Of a stretch of 64,000 bases of DNA, positions 3,001 through 62,758 are shown piece by piece (the stretch's first letter is position 1; each line of letters begins with the position of its first letter). Below the pieces are notes generated by a model. The model saw nothing but the letters and a program-made list of their open reading frames with translations, was not told the origin of the DNA and made no database searches. The stretch spans positions 67,831 through 131,830 of the forward strand of contig MU270082.1 in NCBI GenBank assembly GCA_021432635.1, in the 5' to 3' direction. Position numbers and translations under genes: made by a program. The DNA is from Thozetella sp. PMI_491. Lineage: Eukaryota; Ascomycota; Sordariomycetes; Chaetosphaeriales; Chaetosphaeriaceae.

Positions 3001-6000
3001 AGAATCCATTCGTCGCTCTTGAAGTTGATGATGACGCGAACAACCTGGAGGGTGTTGATGATGTTGGTAATGAACTTATCGTCATTCTTCTCCTTCTCCG
3101 GGTCGCCTGCAAGAGTGGCCGTTGTCTTATCGCTTGCCAAGACGACATCGGTGACATTCGGGAAGAGATCAACGTCGAGATCTCCCCAGTATTGTGGCTG
3201 GAGGAGGTTGTAAAGCAGGGTCATCGCCTTCTTGATCAGATCTGTTGACTGCATTGGTGGCCCGGGGCTTGGAGTTACGACTGTGTCTCGGGACTTTGAC
3301 GGAACAGGGTATCGTTCGTTTAGTTGGGCAATGAACTCCACGAGATATTTCACCATCTTCTGTCGCCCTATGGGTGGGATCAAGAATTCCGCTCTCTCCG
3401 GCAAGGGCTGCTTCGGTGCTGATGGGGATGAACCCGCTGCAGATACCTCCTCGAGCTTGCGCTTCTTGGTGTTCGGGGATTCGGAAGGTGCACGTAACGG
3501 CTCGGACCGTTTACCTTCGACTCGGCGCTGCTCCCACTGCCAAATCAACCACATCATATTGAGAGCCAGTTTCTTGCTCTCGTTGGAAGGGTTTGGAGGC
3601 GGAGCAACCTTGCGAAGACAAGTTATGATGAGCATCGCGAATTTATCCCGGGATTCATAGAACAAGTCCGGATGCTTTACCAAGAAGTGGAAGATGCTGG
3701 TCATCTGCTGGACATTTTGACTCTCTTCAGCTAGCACCCGTCGCGGTGGTACCGCCCAAACCGCGTTCCTATCTCCGGAATTGACGTTGCAGCGCTTCGG
3801 CAGGACCGGTGCCATCAGCTCGAGGGCCTGCGTGACCAGAGCCCGGCCTTCGTTCTGGCTGGTCCTGAGCAGGGAGAAGTAGATCTGCGTGACAATCTTG
3901 GCTGGGGTTTCGTAGTGGGCAATGAAGTATCCGATAACCACGTACGCGGCATGCTTGTTTATCACGTCTTCCAGGCGGATGTACGTCCAGCCGAACTTAA
4001 TGAAATCTTTTCGCGCATCTTGTAGATTGGCGTAGTGGTATTTGACAAGCATAGCCGAAAGCTGCAGGACCTCCATCCGAGTGTGATCGATTCGAGGCTG
4101 CAGCAGATCATCGTGCGCGTCTGACAGGTTTGCCTTCCAGATCTTGGTATTGATGGAGTCTATAACCGCTTTGTCCAGCAGCCGGGTGCTCCTCGCTTCT
4201 CCCTGGTTCCAATTCCGCATGACGTCCATGGCGACAATAGGGTTGACGAGGTTGTGGAGGAGATACCATTTAGCCCGCTGGCTAGCGCCCTTGCCAGCGT
4301 AGACCTCGAGGCATCGGAGGATTACAGTTCGCCAAAATTCCACCGAGTCGTTGCAGATGATGTTCTTATAGATGTAGGAGAGCAGAGTCTGAGTGTCCCG
4401 GAAGTCATCTGCTGTGATGGATTCGATCAGGCCAAAGAGACTGTCAAGGTCTTTAGGATGTTGCTCGAGGGTCTTGGCAAGGAGAGCCATCAGCTGGTCG
4501 CCAGCCTGATCTGCGGCTAGTCGCAGGTTTGCGGGAAGTTCGTTGGTCCGGAGGCTGCGCTCGAGGTCCTTGCCAATTTGCTTTAGCCAATCCACGTGCT
4601 CCTTGTTCTCCATCCATGTCGATGTGTTGGGAAACTGCGAGAGGGCATGGAGGATATTCAACGTGTTCACGATCGCGACGATTCGGGTCTCTTTACCCTC
4701 GGCAATGACTGCGTTGCACGCCTTCACGAGGGCTTCTACGTTGGAGGCGCCATGATCCCGGAGGCGCTGGCTGTCCGGGTCCGAGAGAACCTGAGTAAGG
4801 AAACGACCGTACTTGAGCTCTCCAATCTTCCCCAAGAGGAAGCTCCAGATGTCAGGAGGGTATTTGTTGAGATACTTGTAGAGCGGCGTCCGGAATGGGC
4901 TATGGTGGGTTCGTCGTAGCTTTTCCTCGAGATCAAGGACGTTGTCGATGACTTGTTCCTTGAATTGCTTGGCAGCTTCGGGGAGAAGGTGGAAGATGTT
5001 AAAGACCGCGGCGATAACCTTCATTTGGTTGTTCTGTTCGAAGAAGGTAAACGAGAGCTGCTGGAGGGTAGCCGGCTCTGCGATCACCTTCACATGGTCC
5101 AGCAGCCTGGCACCAATCTCCACTTTGAAGTAGGTTGTCAAGAGGCGGAGGAGGCGGGCCAGGTTTTCCAAGCCATGGACAGAGAGCCTCTTGGCATCCT
5201 GTAGGCTGGCAAGGACTGGTCTCAGTCCGGACTGCAAGAGGTCCTTAGGAAGCTTGCTAGTCTGAGAAAGGACCGCTTTGAGGGCCGAGTTCGCTGCCTC
5301 GATAGTAGGTTGAGACTCCGAGTAGAGACACTTGAAGAAGACAGTCACAATCTTGGACCGCGTCGGGTTTCCTTGCCCGGCCATGAAGTCTTCAAAGCTC
5401 ATGGCGGTGCTGAGTATTTTGATGCATGAAACCCGGAGGTTGACGATGTAATTGTGGGTTCGAAACTCATGGGTCTTACCAGCTAGAGATTCGTCGGTTG
5501 CGTCCGCCAATGCGAGGGATTCCATCAGCATCCTGTTCAAGTTGTCGTCGATGACGACGAAGTCGGGCTTGAGAGTCATGTAGTACGTGACAGCCTCGAT
5601 CGAGCCAATCTGAGTTGGGAACGGAAGCGCTCGCAACGGTTTGCTGTAGATCTGGGGGAGCAGCGACTTCTTGTGAGGCTCGAGCAGCTCCCAGATCTCG
5701 GCCCCCGCGGCTTTGGCCATCAATCCGATGGATCGCTTGGCCGTCTCGCGGGCGTGCTTATTCATATGAGCCAGCTCTGCGTTGAACATGCTGCAGAGAT
5801 GCATCAAACGGCCGGGCTTTGGCTGGGGCTGCCCGGCTTGGGGCGGCTGGGCCGGAGTCGGAGGTGGCAAGCAGTCTTCCTTCTTGATATTCTTTGTGAT
5901 TCGTGTCAAGAGGGTCTCGAGGGTCGTCTGTGCCAAGCTCCGCGTCTTCTCTGACAGGTCTTGAGGCATGTCTTTGACGACATACATCAGCGCACGAGCA

Positions 6001-9000
6001 AACTCGGTCTGTCGCTCGGCAACCCAGGCATCCCCTAGATCCACATCTGTGAGTAGGACCTTGATCCCGAGTACTCCGCCAGCCTTGGTATACCACTCTT
6101 CTTCATAGCACCCGTGCTGGAAGACCGCGGCCAGTTCCTTGAAGAACTTTAGGCGAGCGACATGCTCCGGTGACCCAAAGATCGTCGCAGCGGTGTCAAA
6201 AATTTCTCGGATCGCTTGCTCTGCGCCTTCTCTAACTTCGGGTTGCTCAGAGGCAAGAGATTCAAGGAGCGCATCGGCCAGGACACGTGTGTCCAAGTAT
6301 AGCGGTCCCTCGCCTGCCGTGGCATCGAATTTGGCACCTCGCCGCTTTAGATCGACCAATGCCATTGCCACCTCGATGATGGTGAAGTGCCGGGCAAGTC
6401 CCAGAACAAACGAGTCTGCTTCCTCCTTAAACTCCGGCATGGACAGGGCGTACATCATAGCCTTGATGAGGCGCTTCAGGACACCTTCCTCGTCTTCTCT
6501 CTTGGCTATCGACCGCTCGCGATCGGATACCATGAACATGGAGAGATCGATACTCGTATTCTGCGCGAGCAGATCCTGGGCCTGTAGGCGCACGAGACGA
6601 GGGAGATCCTCTGGTAGATTATCAAAACCTATTCGGAGTTTGAGTTGCGCCTTGATCAGCTGCAATGCCTGTCGCTTGTAGTAGGCATCATGCTGCCTCG
6701 CCGAGCCGGGGCGAGGGGGCTTGGGCATCTCAGTCAACTTTTGAATGGCCAAGTCGATGCCCAAGTGTGCCGGGAACGCTCTGTCCTTCTTCGAGCCGAT
6801 CAGGCGGACATCAAAGCTCGACTTGTCGTCCACGTATTGCTCGAAGCTGACGGGAACAGTGTCGGTCATGAACTTCCGGTTGCGACCGCCGAGTTTGCCG
6901 AGGATTCGCATCGTCGTGTGGGCGTGGAAGTGGCTGTAAGGATGCGGCTTCAAATGGTCAAAGAGAGCAGTCATAAGCTCATCTATCACAGGCGCCATGA
7001 TAGGGTCGAGATAGTCCGCCGTCAGGTTGTCAACGCACAGCTCGAGCGTGCGAAGTCCCTGGCCCACTAGATCTGAATTCGCTCGCAAGGCGACGACCAA
7101 AGGTCGCATCAAAAAACTCAGGTGCGGCAGTAGGTTGCTCAACCTCGCAGGGACTGTGAGGCACAACTCGACGTATAGATCTCGCTCAGTAGGCTTTCGG
7201 GCAGCTAGCAGGAGGTTGTTGAGCACGTCCAGCAACATCTCCAGAAGCGGGAGGATTTGGTTGTAGAGCTGCTCGAACTTTCCTCCGCCAATGCTGCGGA
7301 ACAGGGATCGGAGCAGAAGGAAGTAGTTCATAGGCTCCTCTGCCTTGGTCGACAGCTCGATCGACTTGGTCACGATGTCAATCACATGTGGGAGCAGAAC
7401 CTGCTCGTTATGGCTTGCGAACAGGGTGACCGCCATGAACGCTAGCTTGAACAGCCGTAGGAGGATAGACGACTTCTTGACGTCTGCCGAACCGACGTCT
7501 TCAATCTTCTCCATCAGGAACCGCAAAAGCATGCCACAAAAACTAGGCGACGTTGCCTCACTCGCGAGGAAGAACTGGGGTATATGAAGAAGCGCGGTGT
7601 GCTCGTGAATCATGTCGTAAAGTCGTGGGATCTCTTGCTGGAAGATCTCGTGGAAGGTGGCCGGGTCAATACAATGAAAGACGGTGCCAAAGGTCTCCAA
7701 GAGGTCTTTCTCCTCCTTGCTGCTCGAGACCATGTAAAAATTGGCCATGTATTCGACCGGCGAGGTATATTGCGACTCGGTCGCTGGTTTCTCGGTTTCA
7801 TAGTACCGGAAGACATATGCGCCTTCGCGGAACAGCTTGACGATGACCTGGACCTCCTCGGCGGTGAACCCGTACGAGACATCCTGCCAGTGACCTGGGG
7901 GAGTGACCGACTCGGCAAGGGGCGGCATCGGGGGGTTGCAGGACTTGAGTTGGTAAAATGTGTTCTTGAGCCCGTTCATGAGGTTCTTGAAGAGGAACTT
8001 GTTGTCCACAACGGGATCAGCGCCGCGGTCTCGGGGGTTAGACGTTTTAATCGGCATCGCCTTGAAGATGTCTGTTTCATCCCACTCTGGAGCATGCTCC
8101 TTGTCTGCGAGGTAGGTTTCAGGCGTGCCATCTGCGGCCTGCTTCGCGTACAGCTTGGAAAGCTTGACGGCATTGGGATATTGCCGGTTCATGGACGCAA
8201 ACTTGTCCCCAATAGCATTGAGGATCATGATCAGATAGTGCCGGGCGTCGACCTTGTTAGGCATCTTGGCGATACATTCGGCCATGTTCAGCAAAAGCTT
8301 CGCACTCATAGTCTGGAAGCTGGTGCCCGGGAAGTCGTCCAACAGGTTCTTGGTGTAGACCTCGACAGTCCTCCGGATCTGCGGTGGTGTGAGAGAGTCG
8401 CGGACGTGGTGGATCAGGTCGGCAAGCATGCTATACGCCAGCGGTCGCATGGTCTCATACACGGTGAGACCATCGCCAATCAAGGTCCTCTCCTCCAACA
8501 GTTCGTCGATCTTGGGCAGGAAGATCTTCCGGAAGTTAAAGTTGATGATATGACGAATGGCGACAAGCAACTCCTTCCTCGCTGACGACTTCTCCCGCGG
8601 GCAGTCCTTCAGGAGGCGTACGACAATGTCTGGGAGCGATGGCAAGAAGTCGGTGAGTTGCTGGGAGTACTGCCTAAGTAGATAGGCTAAGAAGCTCATC
8701 GTCTTGACCTGGGCAGTGATAAAGTCACCGAAACCCGCCCGGTTCTTGATGCTGGGGCTCACTCCTGTAAATATCGTTTTCTTCGCGGCTGCCTCCTTGT
8801 GTGCTTGCTCTTGCGCTTTGACCTGGCACATCAAGACCGACTTAATCAAAGGCACAAACAGCTTGACATTGTGCTGTACCGTAGACCGGTAGACCTGGAA
8901 GATCGACACGACAATGATGGGACATTCTGACAGAACCTTGAAGGACTGCATGCCACCCAATAGCGGCCGGCCGGGCTGCTGGCTCGTGTCGGTACCAAAC

Positions 9001-9715
9001 TCAGGAGCTCCTGGCGCGACAGGAGAGGCGGGGCGGGGGGATTGCTGATGAGACATGAAGGTCGTCTGCGTGCTCCCCGGTGTTGAGGGCGCACCAGTCG
9101 CCCCAGACCCTGCGTTGTTATCCAGTTGTTCCCGGACCACTCTTTCCATCATCTCGAACAGCTCCTGGATCAGGGTCAAGAAATCTTGGACTTTCGGCGC
9201 GAGGACCTTATGCTGGTGCCGCATGATATCCGAAATGATCTTGACGCACAGGACCGCATTTTCCTCGTTGTCATTGCGGACTAAGCTCATGAGCAGGTCG
9301 ACGACCTCGGCAGCATAGGGCTCGAAGGGCTCAGGAGGGCTGGCCGAAGTCGGTAATCGGTGAAGGATCTCGAGGACGCAATTCCGGAGCTTCTGGAGAT
9401 TCGCTTGGTCTGGAGTGTTGATCTGGAAGACACTGGACCCTCGGAGGATGTTGATGAACGGTGGCATCAACCGCTTGAGGAAGATGGGGTATGCTGCTCC
9501 TGTGACATAGTGGTCAAGGCTGTCGCGTAGGGTTGTGGCAGCTTCGACCTTGAGACGAAGTTCTGGCAAAGAACATATACGTTAGATCATCAGAAGAAAT
9601 CCACGGAGCACCATGCACTGAAGGCAAGGCGATGGAATTGGGGGGCGCTGGAAGCTTTACCTGTCTCGGGCACGCTGAGCTTGCGCACCACATCCTCGAT
9701 CGGGTTGCTCCCCAT
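1..9715 (-). CDS. tra1: Tra1, SAGA/NuA4 scaffold pseudokinase (3' end outside window)
   Basis: Tra1/TRRAP recruits the SAGA and NuA4 acetyltransferase complexes to activators in the nucleus. It is a PI3K-like protein without kinase activity. The start at 9715 gives [17 protein letters not shown]; one intron (9563-9660, CTAAC branch) follows codon 18. The frame found just after this intron is the same frame read at the left edge, and the parts I translated are open, so about 3205 codons are present. N-terminal HEAT repeats are recognisable ([19 protein letters not shown], a Ser/Pro-rich linker near 9000-9060, then [17 protein letters not shown]). The left-edge peptide [14 protein letters not shown] matches the end of the FAT domain. 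The PI3K-like and FATC domains, about 550-650 residues, should lie beyond the edge. I did not check every codon by eye. Confidence 0.96.
9563..9660 (-). other. tra1 intron 1
   Basis: Donor GTAAAG at 9660, branch site CTAAC, acceptor TTTGCCAG ending at 9563. Removing it joins GTG CCC GAG ACA G to AA CTT CGT, giving [20 protein letters not shown], which fits the conserved Tra1 N-terminus. Confidence 0.9.
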
Positions 9716-34111: not shown

Positions 34112-36886
34112 ATGCCGGGATTCGCAGACTCCTTCTGGACGGCGGACTACGCTGCAGGTAAGATTGCCTGGAACATCAACGGCAGCTGGAGACAGGAAGC
34201 TCACGCTGTGGAATAGGCCTCGGGGTCCTGTTCGGCAAGCTCCAGCAAGGCGTGGTCGAGAATCGTCAGATCCTCGTCGTTGCGCGAATGCGCGCCGAGG
34301 CTGAGGAGGTTTACGGCTTGCGGCTGGCGGAAATCGCCCCTACGGTCGACAAAGTAACTGGCGGCTTCACTCGCGATGATGGCGCAAGCGTGCGAAAGGT
34401 ACAGTGTTGCAATCTGGGCGCGCTTCCTCCCCGAATCGCACCTGGCTAACTCTTGGCCTAGGCATATGAGGGTGTTCGGACAGAGATGGAGGAGGCCTCG
34501 AAAAACCACAAGAAAATCGCGCAAAACATTAGGGATTTGGTCGTGAGCCCCTTTTCCCGTTGGTGCGAAGCCCACGAGTCTCGGATACAAGATTCCCAGG
34601 ACGAGCTGCAAGGCAGGATCAAGGCACACGACAAACAGCTAGAAGCAGTCAAGAAGCTGCGGAGCACCTACTTCAACAAGTGCCGTCTGGTCGAAGACAT
34701 CGAGGAGGAGAACAAGCTCGCCTTCCAGGCGCCCGAAACGAGCCCGAAAGCGAAGCCCCCGCCGATTCCCGAGATCAAGGTTCAAGAAGAGCCGGAGGAG
34801 GAGGATGAGCCTTACGAGATTGGCGATGAAACCTACACCCCCGACCAGGTCAAGAAAATCGTTGCTCACATGCTGAACACCATCAAGATGGGGGATACCA
34901 AGGTTCCGATCTTGGGGACCTACATGAACACGTCGGCAGGGTCTGACATTGTCGACTACCTCCAGCGGAACATGGGGACAACAAGCGTTAGCTACGCTGA
35001 GAGGATTGGCCAGGATCTCATCACCCATGGCTTCCTGCGACTGATCGGGAACGTCGGCAACACGTTTGCCAACAGCTCCAAGATGTTTTACCAATGGCGG
35101 CCGAAGGCTTTCCAGATGTCAGGGGTGCCGGAGAAGAAGGCCCAGCTCGGGAGAACCTTCTCGCTCCCGAGCACTAGCGGCGAATCCACCGACTCACCCG
35201 TGGTTGGCACTGTCACCGAATACCTGGCTAACTGGAACGTGCTCAACACGTCGCGGCCGGGCGAGACCCCGGCCGACCGCCTGCGCAGGGAAGCCAGGGA
35301 ATCGGACGACCGATACAAATCGGGGGTTCAGAAGCTGGATGAGATGCGCTGTGAGCTGGAGGAGGCCATCCTGGTACACCTCAAGTTCCTAGAGCGCTGC
35401 GAGCTCGACCGTCTCAAGGCTATCAAGACGGTTGTACTAGACTTTTCGGGAACCATCAGCAACGTGATCCCCAGCCTCCAGGCGACCGTTGACAGCATGA
35501 TGCTCTTCCAGGAGACCGTCCAACCCCTCGGAGATCTTCGCTACCTCCTGGAGAACTATCGGACTGGCAACTTTGCCCCGAGAGTGGTTGTCTACGAAAA
35601 TTACTACAACAAAGTGGATGAGCAGACATTTGGTGTGGATCTCGAGGCGCGGGCAAGGGCCGACAAGAAGCGCGTCCCCATCATCGTCACCACTCTGCTG
35701 ACGTATCTGGACCATCACTACCCTGACTTGGAGGGAGACGAGGCCCGGCGTGGAGTCTGGCTGCACGAAGTGCCTTTGCAGCAGACCCACAAGCTGCGCA
35801 CCAAGATTAACAACGGAAAGGAATTCTCGCTGGAGACGTTTTCCGACTTTGACATCCCCACGGTGGCCAGTCTGCTGAAGCTCTACCTGCTCGAGCTCCC
35901 TGGTACGTTACTCCAATGTTTTGTACTCTTTCCCCCCAGGACCTAGCTTACTGATGTGCATAGACTCGCTTGTCTCCTCCCACGTGTACGAGATCATCCG
36001 GACTATCTACGCCCAGCCGACGGCAGAGACCGCCGACTCTGAGGCTCGCGTTCCTATCCTGCAGCAGACCCTCTCCCAGCTCCGTCTTACTAACATTGCG
36101 ACGCTCGATGCCTGCATGAACCACTTCACGCGCCTTATCGAACTGACGTCAGCGGACGAGGAATATGTTTCGAAGCTGGCCACCTCACTCGCGCCCTGTG
36201 TCCTGCGGCCTCGCACCGAGACCTCGCTCACCATGGAGGAGAAGCATGCCTACCGCCTCATCCGAGACTTGTTCGCGCATAAGGACGCCATCTTTAGTGA
36301 GCTGAAGCGCATGTCAACTCTCAACCACAGCACGTCGGTCACCGGACCGCCCAACCGACCTCGGGCCATCTCGACCGACGAGAGCAACCGCAAGGCCAAC
36401 ATGGAAGAGCGTAACCGCGCCCTGCTCGAGAAGGCCACGGGTAGCCGCAGCCGGGCCACCTCCCCGGCCCCAAGCCCTCGTGGCCACCGGCGTGAGAGGA
36501 GCACGGGCGGCCCGGAGACACGTTTCCCGATCTCGACTGGCATCACCAGCCCAACTCAGACCGACAGGCAGCACCGCCAGAGCATGGGCCCGGTCCTGCC
36601 TAAGCGGACGAGCCTGGAGGTTCCGGGTGAAGTCAGCCTCGGTCTGGGTCTGAGCCACCCCGACGACGGCAACTTCCTCAACGGCTACAACCCTCAGGTG
36701 GCAGTGGCCCCCGCACCGGAGCCGGCCGTCGCTGCGGTGAAGGCAGAGGGAGAAGCCTCGATTGAGAAGCGCAACAGCCTCGGACGGAGCGGAGCGCGGT
36801 TTGTGGGCGGCCGCCGTGTCCCACCCGCAGGCCAAGATCCGACTCAGGGCGTAACGCTCTCGGACGGGCCCTCTATGTCCGACTAA
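34112..36886 (+). CDS. rgd2: Rgd2-type Rho GTPase-activating protein (F-BAR, DEP, RhoGAP)
   Basis: Predicted GAP for Rho/Cdc42-type GTPases at curved plasma membrane (tip growth, septation). Four exons: 34112-34157, 34217-34398, 34462-35902, 35964-36886; 863 aa. The first F-BAR half (about 5-195) starts SFWTADYAAGLGVLFGKL. A DEP domain follows at about 205-290 (LGTYMNTSAGSDIVDYLQRN, GFLRLIG, FYQWRP). A second coiled segment (about 358-430: EAILVHLKFLERCELDRLKAI) looks like the rest of the F-BAR, so DEP appears inserted in it. RhoGAP spans about 466-660 (FGVDLEARA, LLKLYLLELP, LATSLAPCVLRP). The usual arginine-finger motif (G-x-x-R-x-S-G) is not seen; its place holds RRGVWLHEVPL. The tail is disordered, Ser/Pro/Arg-rich and probably phosphorylated. 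The symbol follows yeast Rgd2 by architecture. Confidence 0.9.
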
Positions 36887-37517: not shown

Positions 37518-37524
37518 TGACTCA
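37518..37524 (+). promoter_or_regulatory. Gcn4/CPC1-type site upstream of rvt
   Basis: TGACTCA, the exact consensus for the bZIP regulator of amino-acid starvation (Gcn4 in yeast, CPC1 in Neurospora), 404 bp before the rvt ATG. About eight such sites are expected by chance in 64 kb, so the match alone is weak. Confidence 0.35.
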
Positions 37525-37692: not shown

Positions 37693-37927
37693 CATAAAAA
37701 GGCTCGTTAGGGCCAGGCACAACGGGTGTTGTTTGTTTGTTCGTTCGTCATCCTCACATCCATCTCCGCATCGCCAGTCCAGCCTAGCAGCACTTCCTCC
37801 TCCCGGTGGTTAGTCTAGTAATTAATTCGGTATTCTCTACTTGGACCACGGCCCTCTCGCTGCCTTGCGCTCCTCTCGCCACAGCACTTTGACAACCACG
37901 CTGGTAGTTTGTCTAATATACCACGGG

Positions 37928-40510
37928 ATGGCGTCCTCCGAAATTCTCTCCCAGACTCTCTCGTCCATCACAGGCATCAAGCTGGAACAGCTCCGGCAGC
38001 AAAAGACGCAATATGAGCTGAAGAAGCGCGCCCTGCTAGAGGACCTGGCGACGGAAACCGACCCGCGGAAGCGGGTCAAGGCTTTCCTCGAAGGCATGGA
38101 GAAACTGCCGACGATGAAGGCGAACCCTCTCATCTCGGGCTTCAACCTGAAGCGGTTCGTAGAGCAGGCCGAGTACGACCCGCTAGTTTCTGACCACTTT
38201 ATGCAAGACTATGAGGCCACGCTGCGCAACAGCCTCGAGGTGCAGAGCAACAAGTATGACTTCGCCTCGCTCTACGGCCGCCTGGTTAACGAGTGGATTG
38301 CGGCGGGCAAGACGGACGACGCAGCGTCGGATGGAGGCTTTATCCCCGTCGGCCGAGAGGAAATGCAGGAGCAGCGAGCAACGTGGGAGGAGTACGTCTT
38401 CAAACCCAAGGAGACGGACGGGGCCTCGATCCGCGACTATCTGGACCGCATCTTCACCAAAGATTCCAAGGATGTCAAGCGAAGCCTGGAGCCCCTCCTG
38501 AAGTCCGTGAAGGACCTGCAGGAAGGATGGGACAAGGAGACGCACTTTAACGAAGCCGTGCTCACCAGCTGCATCAATGGCATGCTCCGGAGTGATCTGC
38601 TGAACGACCAAAAGCGCGCCACAGTCCGGGATTTCCTTGGAAACAAGATTGTGCTCTCCGAGATTGCTGATGTACTCAACATGCGCATGGCGACTCGCTC
38701 ATCGTGGCGCTGGAACTCTCCCCTAGTGATCGAGCAACGCCGGAACCTGAACGGCCGCTACCGCTTCTACCCGGACGAGGACATACTGGACTCCATGTTC
38801 ATCCACTACATTGGCCAGCGCTGGGCTGTCCATTTCCGGTCGCAGCTCATGCAGTTTGCCTGGAGGGAAGGTGTGTGGAAACGCGACACTCCCGCCATCA
38901 CCAAAGAGGATGCCCGCCGCCGACGCTTCTTCCTCGGCGAGAACGGCAGGGATCTTTCCGGGGACATGTCGGTCAGGCATCACCGCGACCAGTATTTCAA
39001 GAGTGACATCCTGCTGGACCAGCTCCCCTCTTCGATGCACGAGGTTCGCGGTGGCTACGGAGACAACGGAACCGATGAGGCTGAAGACTCGCGAAAGTCG
39101 CATCTCGAAGTGACGCAGGATCTTCTGCGCCGGATTCAGACCGAGGTACTCATGCAGACCAAGCTCGGACGCGACATCACCGTGATCCGGTCAGACTTTA
39201 AGTGGTTTGGCCCATCTATACCCCACAGCTCACTGTATGCGGTGCTCGAGTTCTTCGGGGTGTCCGCCGAGTGGATCGACTTCTTCCGCCGCGTCCTCGA
39301 GGCGCCGCTCCGCTTCGCGCAGGACCCTATCGACGCGGAGCCACAGCTGCGCCGGCGCGGCACGCCACTCTCCACCCCGCTGGCCGACTTCCTGGGCGAA
39401 GTGCTGCTCTTCTGTGTCGACTTCGCTGTCAACCAGCGCGCCGACGGTGTCAAGCTGTATCGCCTGCACGATGACATGTGGGTATACGGCAGCGTCGATG
39501 CTTGTACCAAGGCGTGGGCGGCGATGGCCGAGTTCACGGAGCTTGTGGGCCTTGAGTTTAACAAGGGGAAGACGGGTGCGGCTTGGATCCAGAGCGGTGG
39601 CGGCGCGGGAAAGCTGCCGGGGAAACTACCCAAGGGGGACGTCACATGGGGTTTCCTGAAGCTGGACCCCGCGACGGGCAGGTTCCTGATCGACCAGGCC
39701 GAGGTGGACAAGCACATTGAGGAGCTCCGGCTGCAGCTGGACGCATGCAAGAGCGTCTTCGACTGGACGCAGGCGTGGAATATCTACGGCGCCCGCTTCT
39801 TTGCCAACAACTTTGGCCACCCAGCGCACTGTTATGGATTCCGGCACGTCGAGTCCATGCTGCAGACCTTCCAGCGGATTCAGCAGCGCCTCTTCCCGGA
39901 AAGCCCTGGCGGCGCGAGCGAGCATCTGAAGCGTATGATTGCGGAGCGGTTCGGCGTCTCCGACATCCCCGACGGCTACCTGTTTTATCCGCTGCAGCTC
40001 GGAGGCCTGGGTCTTCAGAACCCGTTCGTACAACTGTACCTGATATCCCGGCAGTTCGAATCTGAGCCGGCCAAGGCGATAGCCGAGTACCTTGAGCACG
40101 AGGAGGACAGCTACCGCAAGGCTAAGGAGCGGTTCGAAAAGCAGGAGCATGACGCACGCAACCGGGGCGGCTCGGGCGCCGAGTTCAGCGACCTGCTAGG
40201 TGAGCGGTTCATGGGCTTTGACGAGTTCGTTCGCTACCGCGAAAGCCTCTCCCGGAAGCTCGGCGACGCCTACCTGGCGCTACAGGGGAAGCCCGATCCG
40301 CTGGACGTGGAGTTCCGGGGCGAGGTCAAGGCGGCGCTGCAGGACGAGTATGAGTGGTACGACATGACCAGCTACGACAAGTGGATCGTCCAGCTGTTTT
40401 CCAAAGACATGATTACGCGGTTCGGTGGCCTGAACATTGTGGACAAGGGGCTGCTGCCGACGGGGCTGATGGCCATGCTACGCCAGAGCCGGTTCCAGTG
40501 GCAGGGTTGA
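37928..40510 (+). CDS. rvt: RVT: cellular reverse-transcriptase-related polymerase
   Basis: Member of the rvt class: single-copy RT-like genes of fungi, other eukaryotes and some bacteria that are not parts of mobile elements. The Neurospora crassa protein is multimeric and polymerises NTPs and dNTPs in vitro with Mn2+; its cellular role is unsettled. Intronless, 860 aa; the open frame reaches further upstream only through a TTG, so ATG 37928 is chosen. An N-terminal coiled coil (about 13-45, KLEQLRQQKTQYELKKRAL) precedes a long conserved region. RT motif A is SDFKWFGPSIPHSSL with Asp423. Motif B is RGTPLSTPLADFL (477-489). Motif C is RLHDDMW with Asp515-Asp516, His replacing the usual Tyr. 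Motif D is GLEFNKGKTG (about 541-550). A thumb and C-terminal extension of about 300 residues follows. No integrase, endonuclease, RNase H, gag or terminal repeats are seen. Confidence 0.93.
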   Translation: MASSEILSQTLSSITGIKLEQLRQQKTQYELKKRALLEDLATETDPRKRVKAFLEGMEKLPTMKANPLISGFNLKRFVEQAEYDPLVSDHFMQDYEATLRNSLEVQSNKYDFASLYGRLVNEWIAAGKTDDAASDGGFIPVGREEMQEQRATWEEYVFKPKETDGASIRDYLDRIFTKDSKDVKRSLEPLLKSVKDLQEGWDKETHFNEAVLTSCINGMLRSDLLNDQKRATVRDFLGNKIVLSEIADVLNMRMATRSSWRWNSPLVIEQRRNLNGRYRFYPDEDILDSMFIHYIGQRWAVHFRSQLMQFAWREGVWKRDTPAITKEDARRRRFFLGENGRDLSGDMSVRHHRDQYFKSDILLDQLPSSMHEVRGGYGDNGTDEAEDSRKSHLEVTQDLLRRIQTEVLMQTKLGRDITVIRSDFKWFGPSIPHSSLYAVLEFFGVSAEWIDFFRRVLEAPLRFAQDPIDAEPQLRRRGTPLSTPLADFLGEVLLFCVDFAVNQRADGVKLYRLHDDMWVYGSVDACTKAWAAMAEFTELVGLEFNKGKTGAAWIQSGGGAGKLPGKLPKGDVTWGFLKLDPATGRFLIDQAEVDKHIEELRLQLDACKSVFDWTQAWNIYGARFFANNFGHPAHCYGFRHVESMLQTFQRIQQRLFPESPGGASEHLKRMIAERFGVSDIPDGYLFYPLQLGGLGLQNPFVQLYLISRQFESEPAKAIAEYLEHEEDSYRKAKERFEKQEHDARNRGGSGAEFSDLLGERFMGFDEFVRYRESLSRKLGDAYLALQGKPDPLDVEFRGEVKAALQDEYEWYDMTSYDKWIVQLFSKDMITRFGGLNIVDKGLLPTGLMAMLRQSRFQWQG

Positions 40511-43170
40511 GAGATGGCACGCTGGAGGTGCCTAGCCAGACGTAGCAGATAGTACATACTGAATTAGATTGATACCCCCTTTGGCGACCTCACGAGGCAT
40601 CGCGAGAAATGAGACGCTTGAACTTGAATGCCTCTAGCTTCCCCAACGGCCTGCGGGTTAGCCTACGACTATTGCCGTACCAACCAGCGCCGTGGCGCCA
40701 GCATAACATGGGGACTAAGTGCTGACCGACATCCAGTAGTGTTAATTTAGAGTTGTTATCAGGTGGGACATTAAGATTAAGCAACGTTGGGGTAAAATTA
40801 GAGGCTCTGCTCCCACTGTGTCTAGGGGGGCATCTTGTATCAAGAGGTACGTATACCACTGGCGCGTGATGATGGGATTCGTCAACCATTCGCATGGAGT
40901 CTCTTATGCGTACATAGCCCTCCGGCCCATGCCATGGTTGATACGCATGTATAATGCGGTATAGCCCATTGGTTGGCCGGGCGTATATCATGTGCAAATT
41001 GACCACAGCTAATGAGCTTGGAGCGCTTGCGGGGCTCGATTTTTGTCGTCAATTTACCTAGCGCCTATCGCCTAGTCAGGGGTTTTTTTTTGCTTCTGCG
41101 TGCTGCTGGCGTCTCCTGGCTTGCCTGGGCAATCCAGCTGCACTAATTAACCAGAGAGGTCCGGGCCGGGGCGGGGTGCCCTGTGGGAAGAGAAAACGAG
41201 AGCGACAGCGACCGGCTGCGTCTCCCTGGGCGAAAATCCTACCTATATCCCGGGTTTTGCCAGTGATAGTAGCTGTAGCCTCCTCTCGGACGGGCCGGCA
41301 CCGAACAACGGCCGGCGCCGAGTCAAAGGGTGGCGGAGGGGGGCAAAGTGATTTGCACTCGATGCGCCGCGATCCACTGCGCGGCGAACCATTCCGGTGC
41401 GTTCGGTTTTGTGCTATTTTTATCGGGGGACCCCTTCTGCCGTGTACAATGATATGTACTATGTATTTAAGCTAGGTTCTCGCAGGGATCAAGCCACGGC
41501 CACGACAAGGCAGGGGGGCTTTAAGCATATCTACTACGGAATATACTATGTATGATGGGCATCCGGAAAAAAAAAGATTGATTTGCATTTTTGGGGGGGC
41601 GTGGTACCTCGTGACTCTGCATCGAAGGGCGCTTTCGACAGCATAAAGAAGGAAGCAAAGGGGATTCCGAGGCGAGGGAGGAGGCCTCGAAGCGAGCGAG
41701 AGAGAGAGAAAGCACAGGCAGCATATTGGTTTTCTGCCTGCGGGCTCTTGGTTCTGCCTCAGCCTTGGCCCGACTCGTCAGCTCCTCCACACAAGACGCA
41801 CTAGTTTCGTGGCTGGCTGCTCGGGAATTTCGCAGACAGGAGCGCTGCGTAGGCTCGCTTGCGACGAATTCTGCCCGTTTGACCAAATGCTTCGATTGCT
41901 CCCCCGCCAAGGGGCACGGTCGAGGAGCGAGCTCGTAGAAGAGACGGTGGTCGAAGAGACGCTGTGAGAGAAGTTGAGTTGGTGGTCCTCGTGGGACGTC
42001 CCGACTCACTCTAGGGGGGGGTAACGATCACTTGGCGGGTTTCGACAAGCGACAAGCGGCGCGGCTCTCCCATCAGGCCCGGGCGAGCTACTGGTACATT
42101 GGGTAGATACGAGTTTACTGTCGACGCGCACATTCCTTCTGCATCTCTGTGCGCAGACGCAATGGCTCCCGTTCTCCCCATGGCTCGGCAGCGACCGACG
42201 TCAGGAAAGAGGCCGTGGCCGCCGCAAGTTTGGCTATCTTGCCCGTCGCGGTTTTCTCACAGGAGGGATTCTTGGAGAGTGGGGGGAGGGGGGAGTTTGG
42301 CTTCCGACTGTCAGATGGTCAGACTGCGCAGGTTCCGACTGCATTGCCGGATGCGTCGATGACGTCCAACTATTGCCTCCCACGCTGCGGCGGCGCCTGC
42401 AGGGCCTGCAGCGTTGCTCTGGGAGACGCGGCGGGTCTTCCAGGTAGCCACCCAAACTTCAGGCTCGCCCGGGGGGGGAAGAGAGGGGGCCACAGCAAGG
42501 GACAGCGGGAGAAGGGTCGTCGACGGAGCCTGGAAATCCACTGGACGGCAGCCCTACCAAGCGGGCCCCAGAGTCAGCCGCTTGCCGGATCTGGGCGCTC
42601 TGGTTGGCTGAGAGCCTAACCATCAGCCGTGGCGCAGACCACTTGCCGGGCCGTGGCTTTGGCGTCAAGCACTCGTCTTGTCGCAGCACAGCCGGGACCC
42701 CCAGCGGGGCGGACAGTCGCCTGGGTGCCGGACCTTTCTCGCCCGCCCAAAAGGAGCAGTGAACGGCAAGTCGGGGGGGCCCTCTGGTGTTGTTTGCGCC
42801 GCAAATCCACCCCCCAGACGGCTTTTTCACTCCTCGTCCGTGGACGAGGATTTAGGAATCTCACCTTGGGACATACGCGTCCTCTCCTTCTCTCTCTCTC
42901 TCTCTCCCCCCCTTCTTGACTTCATCTTCCATCAACCCCTCCCCAGTGCGTGGTTCTCTTGCGGTTTTTTTTGTCTCAAGAAACCCACCCGCCAACCCTG
43001 ATTCATTTATCCCCGACTCAAGACTTCGGCCGACGCGACTCAAAGAGCTCCTTCCCCGGCGAGTCGAGGCGCCGAAACCTGTGCCGGATCGAAGCCCCAA
43101 TCCTTCTTCGATCTTCCACAGCTGTATCGCGGGAACAAAGAGGACGGGCTACAACCACCGCACCAAAACC
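40511..43170. other. Intergenic region and MARVEL gene promoter/leader
   Basis: 40560-41060 is AT-richer and follows the rvt stop. Elsewhere there are poly-purine/pyrimidine runs and homopolymers (41081-41089 T run; A-run 41566-41577; G-run 41591-41598). ORFs are short and unrecognised. The last 290 bp is probably the 5' leader of the MARVEL gene. Confidence 0.55.
42880..42917 (+). promoter_or_regulatory. CT tract at the MARVEL gene core promoter
   Basis: An uninterrupted pyrimidine run (CTCT repeats then C8) about 255 bp before the ATG at 43171. Such tracts commonly lie just upstream of transcription starts in filamentous fungi. Confidence 0.45.
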
Positions 43171-44282
43171 ATGTGGGAAGAAATTGAATTCAACCCGGAG
43201 AGGGTCCCCCTTTTCAAGCTCATCCTGCACTTGTCGCAGGTGGTGCTGAGCTTCGTCTGCTGGTGCTTGGAGATCGCCGTGTTCCGAGCTGATGGCGCCG
43301 CCGTCAACGGCAACAATGGCTGGACATTCGCAGTGGTAGGTCATCCTCCGCGCCTTGGGTTGCCTAGAGACGAGAGCAACAGACTAATTGGGCCTTTTTG
43401 CATGCAGTGCTTCCTCTCCATACCGGCCTGGATCTACCTGATCATGACCCCCCGATTCCCGCGGACCCGCAAGTTCGCTCAGCCGCATGCCATGGTGGTC
43501 ATCGATGCCCTCTTCACCGTCCTCTGGCTCTCGGCCTTTGCGACACAGGCTGCCTACAACACCGCCAACTCGTGCGGAACAGCTTGCGCTCTGAGCAAGA
43601 CCATCGTGGCCTTTGGCTTCTTTGTTTTGTACGTCACAACCCCAATACACACCCCTAGCACCTTCTTCTCCCCTTACCTGTTTCGCACCCTGGCCCAAAT
43701 TCCGGGGAGCAACAGAAACAGAGACCACCCCTCCAAAAAGCAATGGAGCTTCCCCGCTAACAAAAGTTGATTAGCCTCTTGTTTGCGGGCACCACGTTCT
43801 TGAGTATCTATTCGCTCAAGTATTACGAGTGGAACAACCGCCTGCCGGGCTACGACCGGGGTAGCGCTGAGGTCCAGAACATTGACCCGGACAAGGCGGC
43901 CTTCTCCATGGCGCCGCACGACGAGGAGGCGTACGCCCCCGTGAGCGGGCAAGACCACGAGGAGCACGACACGTCTTACGGCGGCGCCGGCTTGGACCCC
44001 TACGCAGGGCCATCCGGCAGCCAGGTCAGCGACCCGTACGCGACGGTGCACTCGACCAACAGCCAGGCTAGCTACGGCGCCAACAGCCAGGCCAGCTACG
44101 GCGCTAACAACCAAGAAAACCCGTTCCGTCAGGACAACCCCTTTGACGGCGAGCCCGAATACCATGGATCGCATTACGGGTCGCAGGTCGGCGGCTATGC
44201 GCAGCCGACTGCGCAGGACGACTACGATGATCACAGGCCGGCCCAGTTCCCCGCCGCGAACTACGACCGAACCGTCAGGTAA
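43171..44282 (+). CDS. MARVEL-domain membrane protein with NPF motifs
   Basis: Four-helix membrane protein of the MARVEL type, a fold used in membrane apposition and vesicle traffic; exact role unknown. Three exons: 43171-43335, 43408-43628, 43775-44282; 297 aa. The ATG has a strong context (CCAAAACCATG). Membrane segments: PLFKLILHLSQVVLSFVCWCLEI; TFAVCFLSIPAWIYLIM; AMVVIDALFTVLWLSAFATQAAY; and, across intron 2, IVAFGFFVFLLFAGTTFLSIYSL. The cytosolic tail (about 155 residues) is Gln/Ser/Tyr/Gly-rich, with a tandem NSQASYGA repeat followed by two NPF motifs (ENPFRQDNPFD), the ligand for EH domains in endocytosis. Intron 2 was placed at GTACGT/TTAG because it restores the last helix. Confidence 0.87.
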
Positions 44283-47611: not shown

Positions 47612-50284
47612 TCAAAACATTATCCACTCCACATCCACACCAGGCCCGCCGATGCACTTGGTCCAGTTGAACGGACCTCGGCGCATGAGACTACCGCCAA
47701 GCATCTTGGGCTGGTCCTCCTTCCAGTCGCCGGCCCAGAGGCGCTCCAGCACGTCCAGGGCGGCCAGGTTGTTCATGTAGCCGCTGCGAGCCATGATATC
47801 TCGGCACTTGCTGCGCACAATGTTTTGCTGCAGTTCGTTGACGCACTCACTGCCGGCGACGAAAAGCGGCCAGAGCAAGAACTTCTCGGCATGGCTGCCG
47901 GCCTCAAGCGACGTCGCGTAGTATACGACCTGGCTGACCAAGTTGCGGAAGTTGGTGTGCGCCGATGGGACATTGGGGCTCGCCAGGCGCTCTGTATAGA
48001 GCAAGGCCGCGTAGCGGAACGCCTCGCTCAAGGACCCGAGATCGCGCATCTGCGACGAGGTCGGGGCAGTCGGCATGTTGGGAAGCGAGGCCGCCGTGCG
48101 GCTCGCATCGTACTCCCAGCTCTGGAGGGCGATGCGCGCCTCCTTCCATTCCCGCCAGAAAGTACTCCGGTGGTCGTCGTAGGCACCTCCTGGGGATTGA
48201 AGGGTTGCGGGGCTCATCATGTCATCCTCGTTCATGGCGGTGCCGAAGCTAGAGTCGAACCGGTTGCCAGGGCTCGTTACCGCTGGCGAGAAGATGTGTG
48301 TGTCGAATCCGAGGGGATCCGACGGCGAGGGCTGGAAGGTGTTGCCCAAGGAGGAGAGCGGCGTGTCCGAGCGCTTGATACCGCCCGCGGACTGCGCTGG
48401 ACTGCCTAGAAGGTTCTGCACCGGCCGGTGCTGCGAGAGCAGGTTGAGGCGGCCGAGCTTGCTGATCGTCTTGAAAAGCTCCCGGTCGCAGCCTACCAAG
48501 TTCTCGGCACCAGGCGGAAGAAGCTGCGCGTCGGGGAGGACGCCGTAAAAGGCCGTGTTTAGCTGTGCCTCCCGGTCGTTGATGCTGGCGCTGACGGCGT
48601 CAAAGTAGGTGAAGAGGCACTCCATCCATGCCGAATCCCTGGAGGCGGGAAAGAGGGAGTTGCGCCTCATACCGAGGATCTTCTTCACTCCGGCAAATTG
48701 CGTCTGGAACTTGGCCACCCCTGACTCAGCCATGCGGTAGTGGCAGAGCAAGAGGATGGTCGCCAGGGCCGAATCGTGCATCGCCTTGTCGTTGTCGTTG
48801 AGCTGCTCATTCAGCAGCTGAACAGCCAGGTTTCTGTGCTGATACTCCTCCGTCAGCGACTGGTCCTCCGGCTGAGCATCGTTAGACTCCGAGATGGCAT
48901 CTATCCGTTTCTCTCCAATATCTCTTCCGTGCTGTCCACGGCTCAACTTCCGCTTCATCCGCAGGTTGCAAGCCGAGAGGGCGCAGATAGCGTGCTGCAG
49001 GCCCCTGCTGCTCGAAGAAAGCCGCAGGATATGCTCTCGGAATGGGTTGTTGGGCGTGTCGATGAAAACCATGGTAGGGCAAAGGGTGTTCTCATAGTAG
49101 TCCATGAAGAAGGGCATCCGGGAGATCAGATCCGGGTTGACCTGGATAGATGGTGACGGCGGCGGGCGTGGAATTGACAGCGGCCAAGGCGAGTGGGCGT
49201 GTTCCTGCAAGCTCTGGGCCTGAACTTCCTCTTCGGTCGTAGGGGGAGCCCAGAATGGGCCTTGAGACTGGGCGCTGGTGCTGTAGGCATCCAGCTCAGG
49301 AGCCGCGGAAACCGACATCTTTCGGATCAGGCTGTTCGCCGACTGGAAATCAGGGTGCTCAAGCTTCGTGAGCGCATCGCAGTCCATCATCTTGGGGCCC
49401 ATTTGGGCATCAAAGTGGGGATCCACGTGTGACTGCAGGCTCGAGGAGTGAAGGCTCGACGCCTGGTCAGACGGCGAATAGACCAGACCGGGGCAGGTCG
49501 TCGGGACCCTCTGCGACTCGATCATGATAGCTGGGCTCTGCGGGACCGGGACGGGGGAGCTGTGGCCTGGATACGAGGTCTCGTAGAGGACCGTGGGGCT
49601 GTGAATGAAGTGCATGTCTTCTCTCCGGAAAGACTGGTCCAGAGGCGACATGTAGTTCACCTCGGTGATGGATTCCATCATTGGCGGAAGCATCTCGTTC
49701 GAAGGCGGCACCGAGACGTGCAGGTGCCGGTTTGAGAACCTAGGAAGGTTCTCGGTCGTCACCACGGGGGGGTACTGGATGTGCGTCCATCCATGGGAAG
49801 GAGGGATCGCCGAGGCGGTTTCCGGCGATGGAATGTGCGGCATCTCGTAGAAAGGCGTGGGAGGAACGGAAGAACCTGGAGAGAGCGGGAGCTCCTCCGG
49901 ACGGCGGCCCTCGGACTTCTCGTCGTGCTCGGGCCATTGGGTGGACGAGGCGGTGGAGCCGGTGCGCAGACGTGTCGGCGCCGGCGACGGCATGTCCTTC
50001 TTGACGGGGTTGACTGGCGGCGCCTTTGCGATGGGCAGCGACAAGCCGCGCAGCTTGCCACGGCTCGCCACACCGACGCCCCATGTCAATTGCGTCTTGT
50101 ATCCAGAGCACTCGTTTCCGATCTCCAGGCACTGGGAGCAGTACGGCCGCCTCCTATCGCACTTGACATTCCGCTTGGCGCAGGTAAAACAGTCGTCGGC
50201 GGCTCCTCCAGCGGGCGCCCTCCTCCTGCGCTTCCTAGCCGAGGCGACCTCCTTGGCCGCAGGCGGTGGGTTTGGCGGCGACAT
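47612..50284 (-). CDS. Zn2Cys6 transcription factor
   Basis: Nuclear DNA-binding regulator with an N-terminal binuclear zinc cluster; target genes unknown. Intronless, 890 aa. ATG 50284 is used because the frame upstream offers only a GTG. A basic stretch (RKRRRR, 17-22) precedes a canonical cluster with Cys at 32, 35, 42, 49, 52 and 59 (C-X2-C-X6-C-X6-C-X2-C-X6-C). The sequence just after it, SGYKTQLTWGVGVASRGKLRG, looks like a conserved extension shared by a subfamily I cannot name. A long disordered Pro/Ser/His-rich middle follows. The C-terminal half (from about 395, PFFMDYYENTLCPTMVFID) fits the fungal-specific transcription factor domain type 2. It is preceded by an unusually long gene-free region. 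Confidence 0.93.
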   Translation of the reverse strand: MSPPNPPPAAKEVASARKRRRRAPAGGAADDCFTCAKRNVKCDRRRPYCSQCLEIGNECSGYKTQLTWGVGVASRGKLRGLSLPIAKAPPVNPVKKDMPSPAPTRLRTGSTASSTQWPEHDEKSEGRRPEELPLSPGSSVPPTPFYEMPHIPSPETASAIPPSHGWTHIQYPPVVTTENLPRFSNRHLHVSVPPSNEMLPPMMESITEVNYMSPLDQSFRREDMHFIHSPTVLYETSYPGHSSPVPVPQSPAIMIESQRVPTTCPGLVYSPSDQASSLHSSSLQSHVDPHFDAQMGPKMMDCDALTKLEHPDFQSANSLIRKMSVSAAPELDAYSTSAQSQGPFWAPPTTEEEVQAQSLQEHAHSPWPLSIPRPPPSPSIQVNPDLISRMPFFMDYYENTLCPTMVFIDTPNNPFREHILRLSSSSRGLQHAICALSACNLRMKRKLSRGQHGRDIGEKRIDAISESNDAQPEDQSLTEEYQHRNLAVQLLNEQLNDNDKAMHDSALATILLLCHYRMAESGVAKFQTQFAGVKKILGMRRNSLFPASRDSAWMECLFTYFDAVSASINDREAQLNTAFYGVLPDAQLLPPGAENLVGCDRELFKTISKLGRLNLLSQHRPVQNLLGSPAQSAGGIKRSDTPLSSLGNTFQPSPSDPLGFDTHIFSPAVTSPGNRFDSSFGTAMNEDDMMSPATLQSPGGAYDDHRSTFWREWKEARIALQSWEYDASRTAASLPNMPTAPTSSQMRDLGSLSEAFRYAALLYTERLASPNVPSAHTNFRNLVSQVVYYATSLEAGSHAEKFLLWPLFVAGSECVNELQQNIVRSKCRDIMARSGYMNNLAALDVLERLWAGDWKEDQPKMLGGSLMRRGPFNWTKCIGGPGVDVEWIMF

Positions 50285-53200
50285 GGTTCGGTGATGTTGC
50301 ACTCTGTTTTAAGCCCGAATGGTCATATAGAAAAGGCAGGCGTAGGTAGGCGGCTTCTCAGCTTCTCGAACAGTTGGGGCGGGCTGATCAGACGGCTCGA
50401 GCCTATATCCAAGACACGGTCTGGCCGTCAATGGGAACGGCTGACTGGTGTGGGTAAATCGAGGATAATATGCAGAGGGCTCAGGGTCCATATAGTGGTC
50501 GGCAAGGCGACCTGGGAATGGGAACAGGATGGGGATTGGGGGGGGCACGAGGGTAGACGGCCTGTTTTTAATAAACCAGCCTACCAGATGATCTGCCCGC
50601 AGACCAGCAGTAGCGGGTATCGGGGCGGGCGGATACCCTTCAGATCAGTACAAAGAGGTACAAGAGGAACTCGACCGGGGGGGCGGAGTTAGAGGCGAAC
50701 GGAAGACGAATGGGAGGCGAGCACACCGGCCGGGGGGAGGGGGGGGTTCGTCGCCAGGCGGAGTGGAGGCCCTGGAGGAAGGGGGGGGGAGTGACTGGGG
50801 CCTGGTCGAGGGGTGGGAGTGGGACTGAAGTGCAGCCGAAGGGGAAGAGGTCTGGTAAGCTAGCACAGACGCCAATGGGTACGTACCTGACCCAGGTCGA
50901 GGTTGGAAGAGACGATGGGGTCCTAGATCATGAGGGGAGATGGGATGCGATTCTATGAGCTAGGAATAGATTGTTCAATTCGTCCTCACGACCACCCCAG
51001 CGATAGCCAGAAATTACGCGCAGGGCATCGCGAGAAGACCCCCAGAGATGGTGCGGTGCATACATCACGCACACAAAACGAAGCCAATCTATGGTCCCAG
51101 GTATGTAATTTTACACGTTGTGAATTTACGCGGAGACGGGACGAGAAAAGAAAGGACGACAGGAAGGACCAAGGAACTTGGGTTGACGGGCGTTTTCGTT
51201 CAAGCTTCCCGCCTGCGAGACAGCGCAAGAGGCGTCGGGGCGGGGAGGGCGGCCAGCCAGCGGCAGGACTGCTCACCACACCATCAGCACGCCAGAGGCG
51301 TTTTTTCTTGGCCCGAGGCCATGAATTAGAGGACCAAACCGGGGGGGCCTACAAAGGGGAAAGCTTGCAGTTGCAGGAGGTGCAGGGGCCACAAGGCCGG
51401 CGTGAGCCAGTGCAAGACCAGTACATGCCCTGCAGGGCACTTTGGCCCTTTGCATGGGCTGGCACGCAGCCCACGCGAGCGAGACACACGCTAGAGAGGA
51501 CAAGATTGGGGGGGCAGATAGAGGCACAGGGATTGAGGTAATAGAGCGAGGAGATATCATGGTACAGTGGCAGAGACAGACAAACGTAGAAACAGAGACC
51601 AAGAGAGCAGATAAGCCAGTAATCGCGATCGGGGAGACCACGAGAGACGGCACAGAAAGTGTGAAAGAGCGAGGTCGCGAAAGACCGAAAAACAGACTAG
51701 GGGAAGGCATGGCAACGGAGAGGGATAGAGCGAGGGGGAGAGGGGAGAGAGAGAGAGAGAGAGAGGGCGCGAGAGAGCGGAGGAGAGTGCTGTCGGCGAG
51801 GTTGGGTACCTGCTAAACAGGGGGGCAGAGAGGGGAGGCCTAGCGTACCAACGTTTGTGCAGTCCAGTAGCTTTGGTTGGAGGAGACAGCACTCGCAGGA
51901 CAGGCAGAGGAGCAGGCAGACTGGCTGGGTCCTGGGCTGGCAGGCGGGCTGGACCCATTCGGGAAGGATGGGGGATGGGATGCACGCACCTCATCTCTGC
52001 TACTTAGTTACAGTACATCCCCCCCCCTTCACCCTCTCGCTGACTGGCGGGCTGGGCTTGCAGCTTCGGGTTTGTTCCTGCGACAGAACCCAGCACCGAG
52101 CTTAATTGTCTAGCTATCAGCCTAGGGGACGAGGGCCAGCGCTGACAGCGAGGGTCCTCACAACCAAAACACGCATGAAAAGGAGAGCTTAACACGAAGC
52201 AGATTGTCGACCGCCCTCGTCGTCGCATGTGCCGTGCACTTGTGCCACCCTTTCTTCCCTCTCTCTCCTTTCTCTCTGACTAGCAACGTAGCTTGGGATC
52301 GCTACCGGGCCAGTCGCTGGAACGATGGACGGTAGCACAAGGACATCGCGTTCCCCTCACTTCGGAACATAGGGACCCCGGAGAAGGAGAGGCGTAGGCG
52401 AGAGCTGGGTTCCGAGACTCGAGCCGCGGGCGGTAGGAGACAAAGAAGACGGGCAAGGGCAAGCTAGTGGGGGACAGGGGGGGGTGCGAGGGGGAACGCT
52501 TCATGGCCCACCCCCTGCTACCCCCCGTCGCTGCAATGTCCTCGAGGTGCGTGCAACGGTGTCGCGTTTTTTTAGAGTTATCTACTATCACGCAAGCATG
52601 CCAGCTCAGAGCGAGCATGGCTGGCCGGGGTTTCCATCTCGTAACCTGCTCACCCCGGGTTGGCGCCGCCGCAGCGCACCACACACGGAGGTACGGTACA
52701 GTGCAGAGTACCTCGCGCGCGCTGTCTGGACTGACTGACTGACTGGCAGAATCCTGTGGAGATAGCTTATCGCACCTACCCTGACCTTGCCCACCGCCGC
52801 ACGGGACCCAGCTTTCGTGTGATCCGTGACCAAGGAAGAAAGAGGGAGGGTAATTAAGCCTCGAGGCTCCCCCCCCCTTTCGTCTAACCGTCAGCGGCGC
52901 CTACGGGACCCAGCACTTCATGACCGCCTTGACGACGTTGACAGCGTCGATCGGAGCACTGAAGGATGCACGTGGCACCCCTCATGATGATGAACTATGG
53001 CCTTTGCTGTTATTTCGGTCACTTCTTTGTGCTGCGAAGCTTTCTCGCCCGTCGGCGAATACCGTGGATGCCATCGTAGCGCACGCACCCGCCACAGGTC
53101 AGCGTGGGGGTCCTTCCCAACCCGACTCGGTCGCCCGCGTCAGTTAATATATTCTCGCCGTTGGACCGCGGATACGTGGGCTCTAGGGCTCGGGGCGGAG

Positions 53201-62666: not shown

Positions 62667-62758
<92 letters not shown>
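62646..62758. repeat. C22-TTT-A88 homopolymer tract
   Basis: 22 C (62646-62667), TTT, then 88 consecutive A (62671-62758). I see no target-site duplication or retroposed coding sequence next to it. Exact lengths are unreliable because such runs are prone to sequencing and assembly error. Confidence 0.9.

Follow-up and report, generated by a model that had tools for sequence, protein, structure and literature searches.

A reverse transcriptase-like gene in Thozetella

The DNA considered here, hereafter the window, is a stretch of 64,000 nucleotides from the ascomycete Thozetella sp. PMI_491 (GenBank assembly GCA_021432635.1, contig MU270082.1, positions 67,831 to 131,830, forward strand), and it carries a gene of the rvt class, which encodes a reverse transcriptase (RT)-like protein. 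This class, described by Gladyshev and Arkhipova in 2011, is reportedly single-copy and under purifying selection, and the RVT protein of Neurospora crassa is said to be a polymerase that prefers nucleoside triphosphates (NTPs). The gene in the window is a single open frame from the ATG at 37928 to the TGA at 40508-40510, with no internal stop. A preliminary description as an intact, intronless gene of 860 amino acids with RT motifs A-D and the residues Asp423, Asp515 and Asp516 is borne out by this frame and by an alignment with the three paralogues discussed below (Table 1). Judged as sequence, the 860-codon frame, the four ordered motifs and the match to the bacterial RT family UG37 (E = 1.1e-64) are together beyond chance.

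In a low-confidence structure model, the N-terminal region is predicted to begin with a long helix (residues 4-41) and to continue mostly helical into the fingers. The linker before motif A may correspond to what has been described as "loop 2a" (PMC5718144). Three tyrosines, Y116, Y171 and Y729, are invariant across the four aligned paralogues and could in principle act as primers. The composition of the gene (GC at third codon positions 0.80, TpA/ApT 0.58) is near that of three other frames in the window (0.71-0.79 and 0.44-0.71, respectively), and there is thus no sign of damage of the repeat-induced point mutation (RIP) type or of recent foreign origin.

Table 1. Features of the rvt gene and its surroundings (window coordinates).
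Feature	Position	Strand	Remarks
rvt gene	37928..40510	+	860 aa, intronless, stop codon included; UG37 match over residues 12-720
N-terminal region, residues 1-390	37928..39097	+	matches UG37 only; model positions 7-273 align with residues 12-305
Linker before motif A, residues 361-390	39008..39097	+	from four-row alignment; near the site of the long inserts in C2 and C9
RT motif A, SDFKWFGPSIPH	39182..39247	+	Asp423 = GAC 39194-39196; residue 423 is Asp (C68, C21), Val (C2) or Thr (C9)
RT motif B, RRRGTPLS...	39350..39427	+	from alignment
RT motif C, YRLHDDMWVY	39458..39487	+	Asp515-516 at 39470-39475; DD in all four paralogues
RT motif D, GLEFNKGKTG	39542..39583	+	from alignment
C-terminal region, residues 621-860	39788..40507	+	residues 637-720 match UG37
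TATA-like ATAAAAA, putative	37694..37700	+	234 bp before ATG; no ATG between 37700 and 37928
TGACTCA	37518..37524		-410 of window rvt
Tra1 exon	3-9581		window gene
DEP and two RhoGAP halves	34462-36883		DEP over Pfam cut-off; RhoGAP below curated cut-off
MARVEL match, weak	42856-43767		below Pfam curated cut-off
Zn-cluster transcription factor	47615-50308		window gene

Kinship with bacterial UG37

The PADLOC model RT_UG37 (PDLC03776, class DRT) aligns with the window protein over positions 7-676 of its 778, and is matched by all four paralogues. When the protein is divided, its first 390 residues match UG37 alone (4.4e-21), as do its last 240 (1.8e-9), and its RT core matches UG37 (1.5e-29) far ahead of the next of 14 models, UG17 (1.3e-9). 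Similarly, the N-termini of the other three copies match UG37 (6.6e-18, 6e-16 and 1.1e-11); that of the copy on contig C2 also reaches a JAB model at 0.032, which we take as chance. Control RTs behave differently: a Rhodococcus UG17 RT reaches the UG37 model only in the RT domain (3.7e-8), and UG37 is absent among the best 25 of 42 models for the telomerase RT (TERT) of this genome and among the best 25 of 33 for its long interspersed nuclear element (LINE) RT. N-terminus, core and C-terminal part all match UG37, so that it is well supported by sequence comparison that the fungal rvt gene shares with bacterial UG37 most of a protein, beyond the RT motifs. The two differ in that rvt is eukaryotic and that the last 140 residues of the window protein are unmatched, though the C2 protein does match the end of the model (730-768, 2.3e-5).

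The gene most probably codes for a cellular RVT, a protein that would be to eukaryotes what the UG37 RTs are to bacteria. Its assignment to RVT as Gladyshev and Arkhipova use the name is inferred from anatomy and from descriptions of N. crassa RVT, with which it shares a non-mobile RT-like gene, an Asp triad, a long stretch before motif A and no detected accessory domains. The preliminary description had the gene class right, and the "unknown cellular role" that it gave can be narrowed by the UG37 match.

Relatives outside the fungus were sought in several collections. Pattern scans found none in genome contigs (2 and 36 pattern matches) or in viral contigs (22, 0 and 4), and tblastn found none in phages. 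In plasmids, tblastn gave no match with the C9 or C21 proteins; with the window protein it gave matches in 108 of 72,556 records at E ≤ 0.01. Among the 20 of these that were listed, one is a Rhodococcus RT that belongs to UG17/DRT10, not to UG37, and the other 19 hit the stretch 419-556 of the window protein (11 group II intron ltrA, one RT domain protein and seven unannotated). At E ≤ 10 (640 records), many of the 60 matches listed lie in a lipoprotein/TonB region at E of about 1 and were taken as chance. The Rhodococcus RT (L010:4611-5975) is annotated as an RT domain protein only; it matches the UG17/DRT10 model at 1.7e-115 and has an Abi family gene nearby.

A four-gene family

The genome contains four full-length, intronless rvt genes on four contigs: C68, which is the window copy, C21 (903 aa), C2 (1037 aa) and C9 (965 aa), all with open frames. 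When the 72.3-Mb genome was searched with the window protein, by a tool that scores only its best candidates, six matches came up at these four places. The proteins of C9 and C21 as queries (E ≤ 10) returned the same places and no extra fragments, as did a genome-wide scan with the UG37 profile (E ≤ 0.001), which hit the four rvt loci only. Identity over aligned positions is 33-38% between lineages and 56% for C2 and C9, which pair with 100/100 support in a four-row tree with an arbitrary root. In the palm, C2 and C9 are 42-45% identical to the window copy, and C21 35%.

Contrary to what had been supposed, the gene is not single-copy, since three further full-length copies exist. Multiple dispersed copies had also been named as a finding that would speak against the earlier reading; they do exist and count against it, but they are divergent and intact. 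Because of this divergence, the intact frames and the absence of repeats of the long terminal repeat (LTR) type around the window copy, the four genes look, from sequence, like an old gene family rather than a mobile element. This differs from the rvt genes described before, which are single-copy according to a meeting report (PMC10680173), whereas here there are four divergent genes, two of them lacking the motif A Asp. Possible precedents for variation in rvt copy number are a perhaps rvt-like RT amplified in subtelomeric arrays of a blast fungus (PMC8381367) and a cyanobacterium with three paralogues of a so-called rvt-domain RT, described as being of the HNH-endonuclease type (PMC3610870).

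The surroundings of the other copies are varied. The C21 gene, which sits 14.4 kb from a contig end, has upstream, at roughly 4.4-10.5 kb of the contig, a fungal STAND gene (Goodbye and NPHP3_N) and an ankyrin-repeat gene (L013:3784-6246 and L013:8545-9855, both on the minus strand). Genes of the STAND and ankyrin type are often linked to self/non-self recognition in fungi. A telomeric position of C21 was considered and rejected: the only place in the genome with four TTAGGG units is on C150, and bases 600-1199 of C21 show none. About 2 kb upstream of the C2 gene lies an ERG4/ERG24 sterol reductase gene (L008:323-1692, plus strand).

Two paralogues without the motif A Asp

At the position of Asp423, C21 has Asp (GAT), C2 has Val (GTC) and C9 has Thr (ACT). 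The alignment from this position to the invariant His433 has no gaps, and neither C2 nor C9 has a carboxylate at the Asp423 position. The Asp pair of motif C is kept in all four copies, although C9 has RDD in place of HDD. The long inserts that C2 and C9 carry before motif A are Gln-rich in the former and charged, with basic runs, in the latter. Given the two-metal-ion chemistry of polymerases, an enzyme deprived of its motif A Asp should be unable to polymerise. The window copy and C21 hold the complete Asp triad and are probably catalytic; C2 and C9 look catalytically dead.

The frames of the two Asp-less genes have nevertheless been kept. Between C2 and C9, the proportion of nonsynonymous differences (pN) is 0.288 and that of silent differences (pS) 0.730, giving a pN/pS of 0.39 (bootstrap 95% 0.36-0.43) against 1.03 for shuffled codons, with silent sites near saturation. 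The remaining pairs, which like this one are comparisons between paralogues, give 0.62-0.71, again with nearly saturated silent sites; shuffled codons across pairs give 1.03-1.14. C2 and C9 thus look like preserved pseudo-enzymes, with constraint apparent though silent sites are near saturation, and the motif A Asp was most simply lost before the two genes split.

Genomic surroundings

The 1038 bp upstream and 1990 bp downstream of the window gene each occur once in the genome, in a search that passes over simple repeats and very common words. Between 35900 and 43000, a repeat search found no LTR-like repeats, and only a G-rich direct pair of 24 nt (37162/42281, 83%) and an inverted pair of 35 nt (41678/42892, 74%). 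The ordinary single-copy surroundings without terminal repeats that had been proposed are confirmed by these unique flanks and this search. The other genes in Table 1 come from a Pfam scan of the long frames of the window, ten in one set; five further frames gave no match. Elsewhere in the window, positions 62671-62758 are an uninterrupted run of 88 A, perhaps a tail left by retroposition or else a feature of the assembly.

The TGACTCA upstream of the window gene is the motif to which GCN4/CPC-1-type factors bind. As a lead to control by amino-acid starvation it is weak and unconvincing: seven sites in 64 kb amount to a chance of about 5% per 500 bp. Among the other copies, C2 has one site at -1493, and there are none within 1500 bp of C21 or C9.

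A proposed mechanism

For rvt proteins, the meeting report describes polymerisation without a template and a need for the catalytic residues in the relief of stress (PMC10680173). Bacterial rvt products have been associated with multimers and protein priming (title of Yushenova and Arkhipova, 2018, as cited in PMC12632851 and PMC12483538), and a bacterial rvt is cited among tyrosine-primed cases (PMC12632851). The abortive infection (Abi) RTs are protein-primed, template-free and trimeric or hexameric (PMC9508834). From these rvt and bacterial rvt passages we therefore derive a multimeric, self-primed, template-independent stress polymerase. By analogy, RVT would form a multimer and use a tyrosine (or serine) of its own as the primer from which nucleotides, preferably NTPs, are polymerised without a template. 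The gene would be induced when translation or amino-acid supply fails, and the product, a free polymer or a protein-bound adduct, would help the cell to survive. C2 and C9 would not polymerise and may assist the active copies in a structural or regulatory role; as a precedent, an inactive DRT3b mutant still enhances synthesis by DRT3a (PMC13174585).

This whole account, a UG37-type cellular RVT acting as a multimeric, self-primed, untemplated stress polymerase with Asp-less partner subunits, draws its mechanism from homology, and we consider it moderately probable. A bolder version would make fungal RVT an offshoot, in eukaryotes, of the defence-associated RTs of bacteria (UG37) that has grown into a multi-subunit machine. 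Hetero-oligomers of C68 and C21 as active and C2 and C9 as dedicated inactive subunits would synthesise RNA or DNA that is untemplated and protein-linked and that serves as a stress or immune effector; C21 lies near the NLR-like STAND gene. We offer this as a speculation and consider it unlikely.

Among known systems, AbiK, Abi-P2 and the class 3 DRT1 enzymes are the candidates for how RVT may work, as protein-primed, template-free multimers (PMC9508834 for the Abi RTs). They differ from RVT, which has no nitrilase, and the Abi-P2 model matches the window protein weakly (0.042; best of the four 0.0058). Telomerase RT is, like RVT, a cellular and non-mobile RT, but the TERT of this genome is a separate gene. 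Its exons lie on contig C55 (L012:1977-4814, plus strand), with Telomerase_RBD and RVT_1 matches.

Alternative readings

One alternative is that RVT is RNA-templated, as are DRT2, DRT9 and DRT10, with an undiscovered fungal RNA as template. A profile of the four rvt proteins matched only DRT9 among PDB sequences at E ≤ 0.01 (5.4e-5), and UG17, which is DRT10 (PMC12632851), is the second PADLOC match of the window protein (1e-8). Structure models of the window protein had a mean predicted local distance difference test score of 49.7 with the full four-row alignment and 48.0 for the core with four rows, too poor to decide fold kinship. With the first of these poor models, Foldseek ranked DRT9 first (E = 3.1e-4) and LINE-1 next (5.1e-4), nearly tied, an order that VIA-align reversed by placing LINE-1/R2 ahead of DRT9; Abi-P2 and DRT2 came at Foldseek ranks 15-17 and were absent among the 50 VIA-align rows listed. 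The DRT9 profile match is confined to shared RT motifs (B-D), however, and DRT9 and DRT10, which have RT motifs in common with RVT, use a partner non-coding RNA and do not share its N-terminal region. In addition, meeting reports term rvt activity non-templated or terminal transferase. We consider an RNA-templated RVT unlikely, if worth keeping in mind.

A domesticated non-LTR (LINE/R2-type) RT, working in target priming or RNA repair, is less likely again. The VIA-align ranking would suit it, but model confidence is low, the N-terminal region matches UG37 alone, and no endonuclease domain was found. The window protein has no match to any Pfam family at E ≤ 1, in searches whose HMMER filters drop most matches above about 0.1, and so none to RVT_1, whereas the LINE RT of the same genome matches RVT_1 at 4.3e-30. 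All four rvt proteins stay at chance level up to E = 1 against Pfam, NCBIfam and PHROGs (best 0.032, 0.015 and 0.021). The earlier statement that the window protein lacks integrase, endonuclease and RNase H holds within this Pfam search, and none of the four proteins has an integrase or RNase H in Pfam.

As to the Asp-less pair, the view that both genes are in decay and do not function as inactive partners could appeal to the missing motif A Asp and to the RDD of C9. We find it improbable given frames open over 1037 and 965 codons, a mutual identity and a pN/pS that, near silent-site saturation, still look constrained, and a loss placed most simply before the split.

Finally, that the four genes are mobile-element copies, as their spread over four contigs might suggest, can be practically dismissed: they are 33-56% identical, the window copy has unique flanks and no LTR-like repeats, none encodes integrase or RNase H, and all four frames are intact while 34 of the 36 or more RVT_1 places counted in the genome, none of which is at an rvt locus, carry stops as RIP-type mutation would leave. 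Stops at so many places, most of them TAA, point to strong RIP in the fungus; the two stop-free places belong to the telomerase (C55) and to a LINE-type RT (C28). The preliminary view of an intact, non-mobile and apparently catalytic gene of rvt type among ordinary genes stands, with catalysis predicted from the conserved residues.

Significance

The rvt class itself is not new. The additions made here are the UG37 match, together with its controls, and a family of four rvt genes, two of which lack the motif A Asp yet look constrained. In the literature searched, we found no statement that RVT is UG37, nor of Asp-less fungal rvt paralogues; the rvt paper of 2011 and a survey of the UG/Abi RTs (Mestre 2022) lay outside its coverage, and we claim no priority.

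Besides telomerase, RVT is among very few cellular RT-like proteins of eukaryotes, and what it does has been an open question since 2011. The UG37 match takes in the N-terminus, outside the RT part, and links RVT with a superfamily in which the mechanisms of several members have recently been worked out. These mechanisms (protein priming, untemplated or repetitive synthesis and abortive infection) suggest direct experiments. More specifically, active and inactive-looking paralogues within one fungus would be a natural test for an RVT hetero-oligomer.
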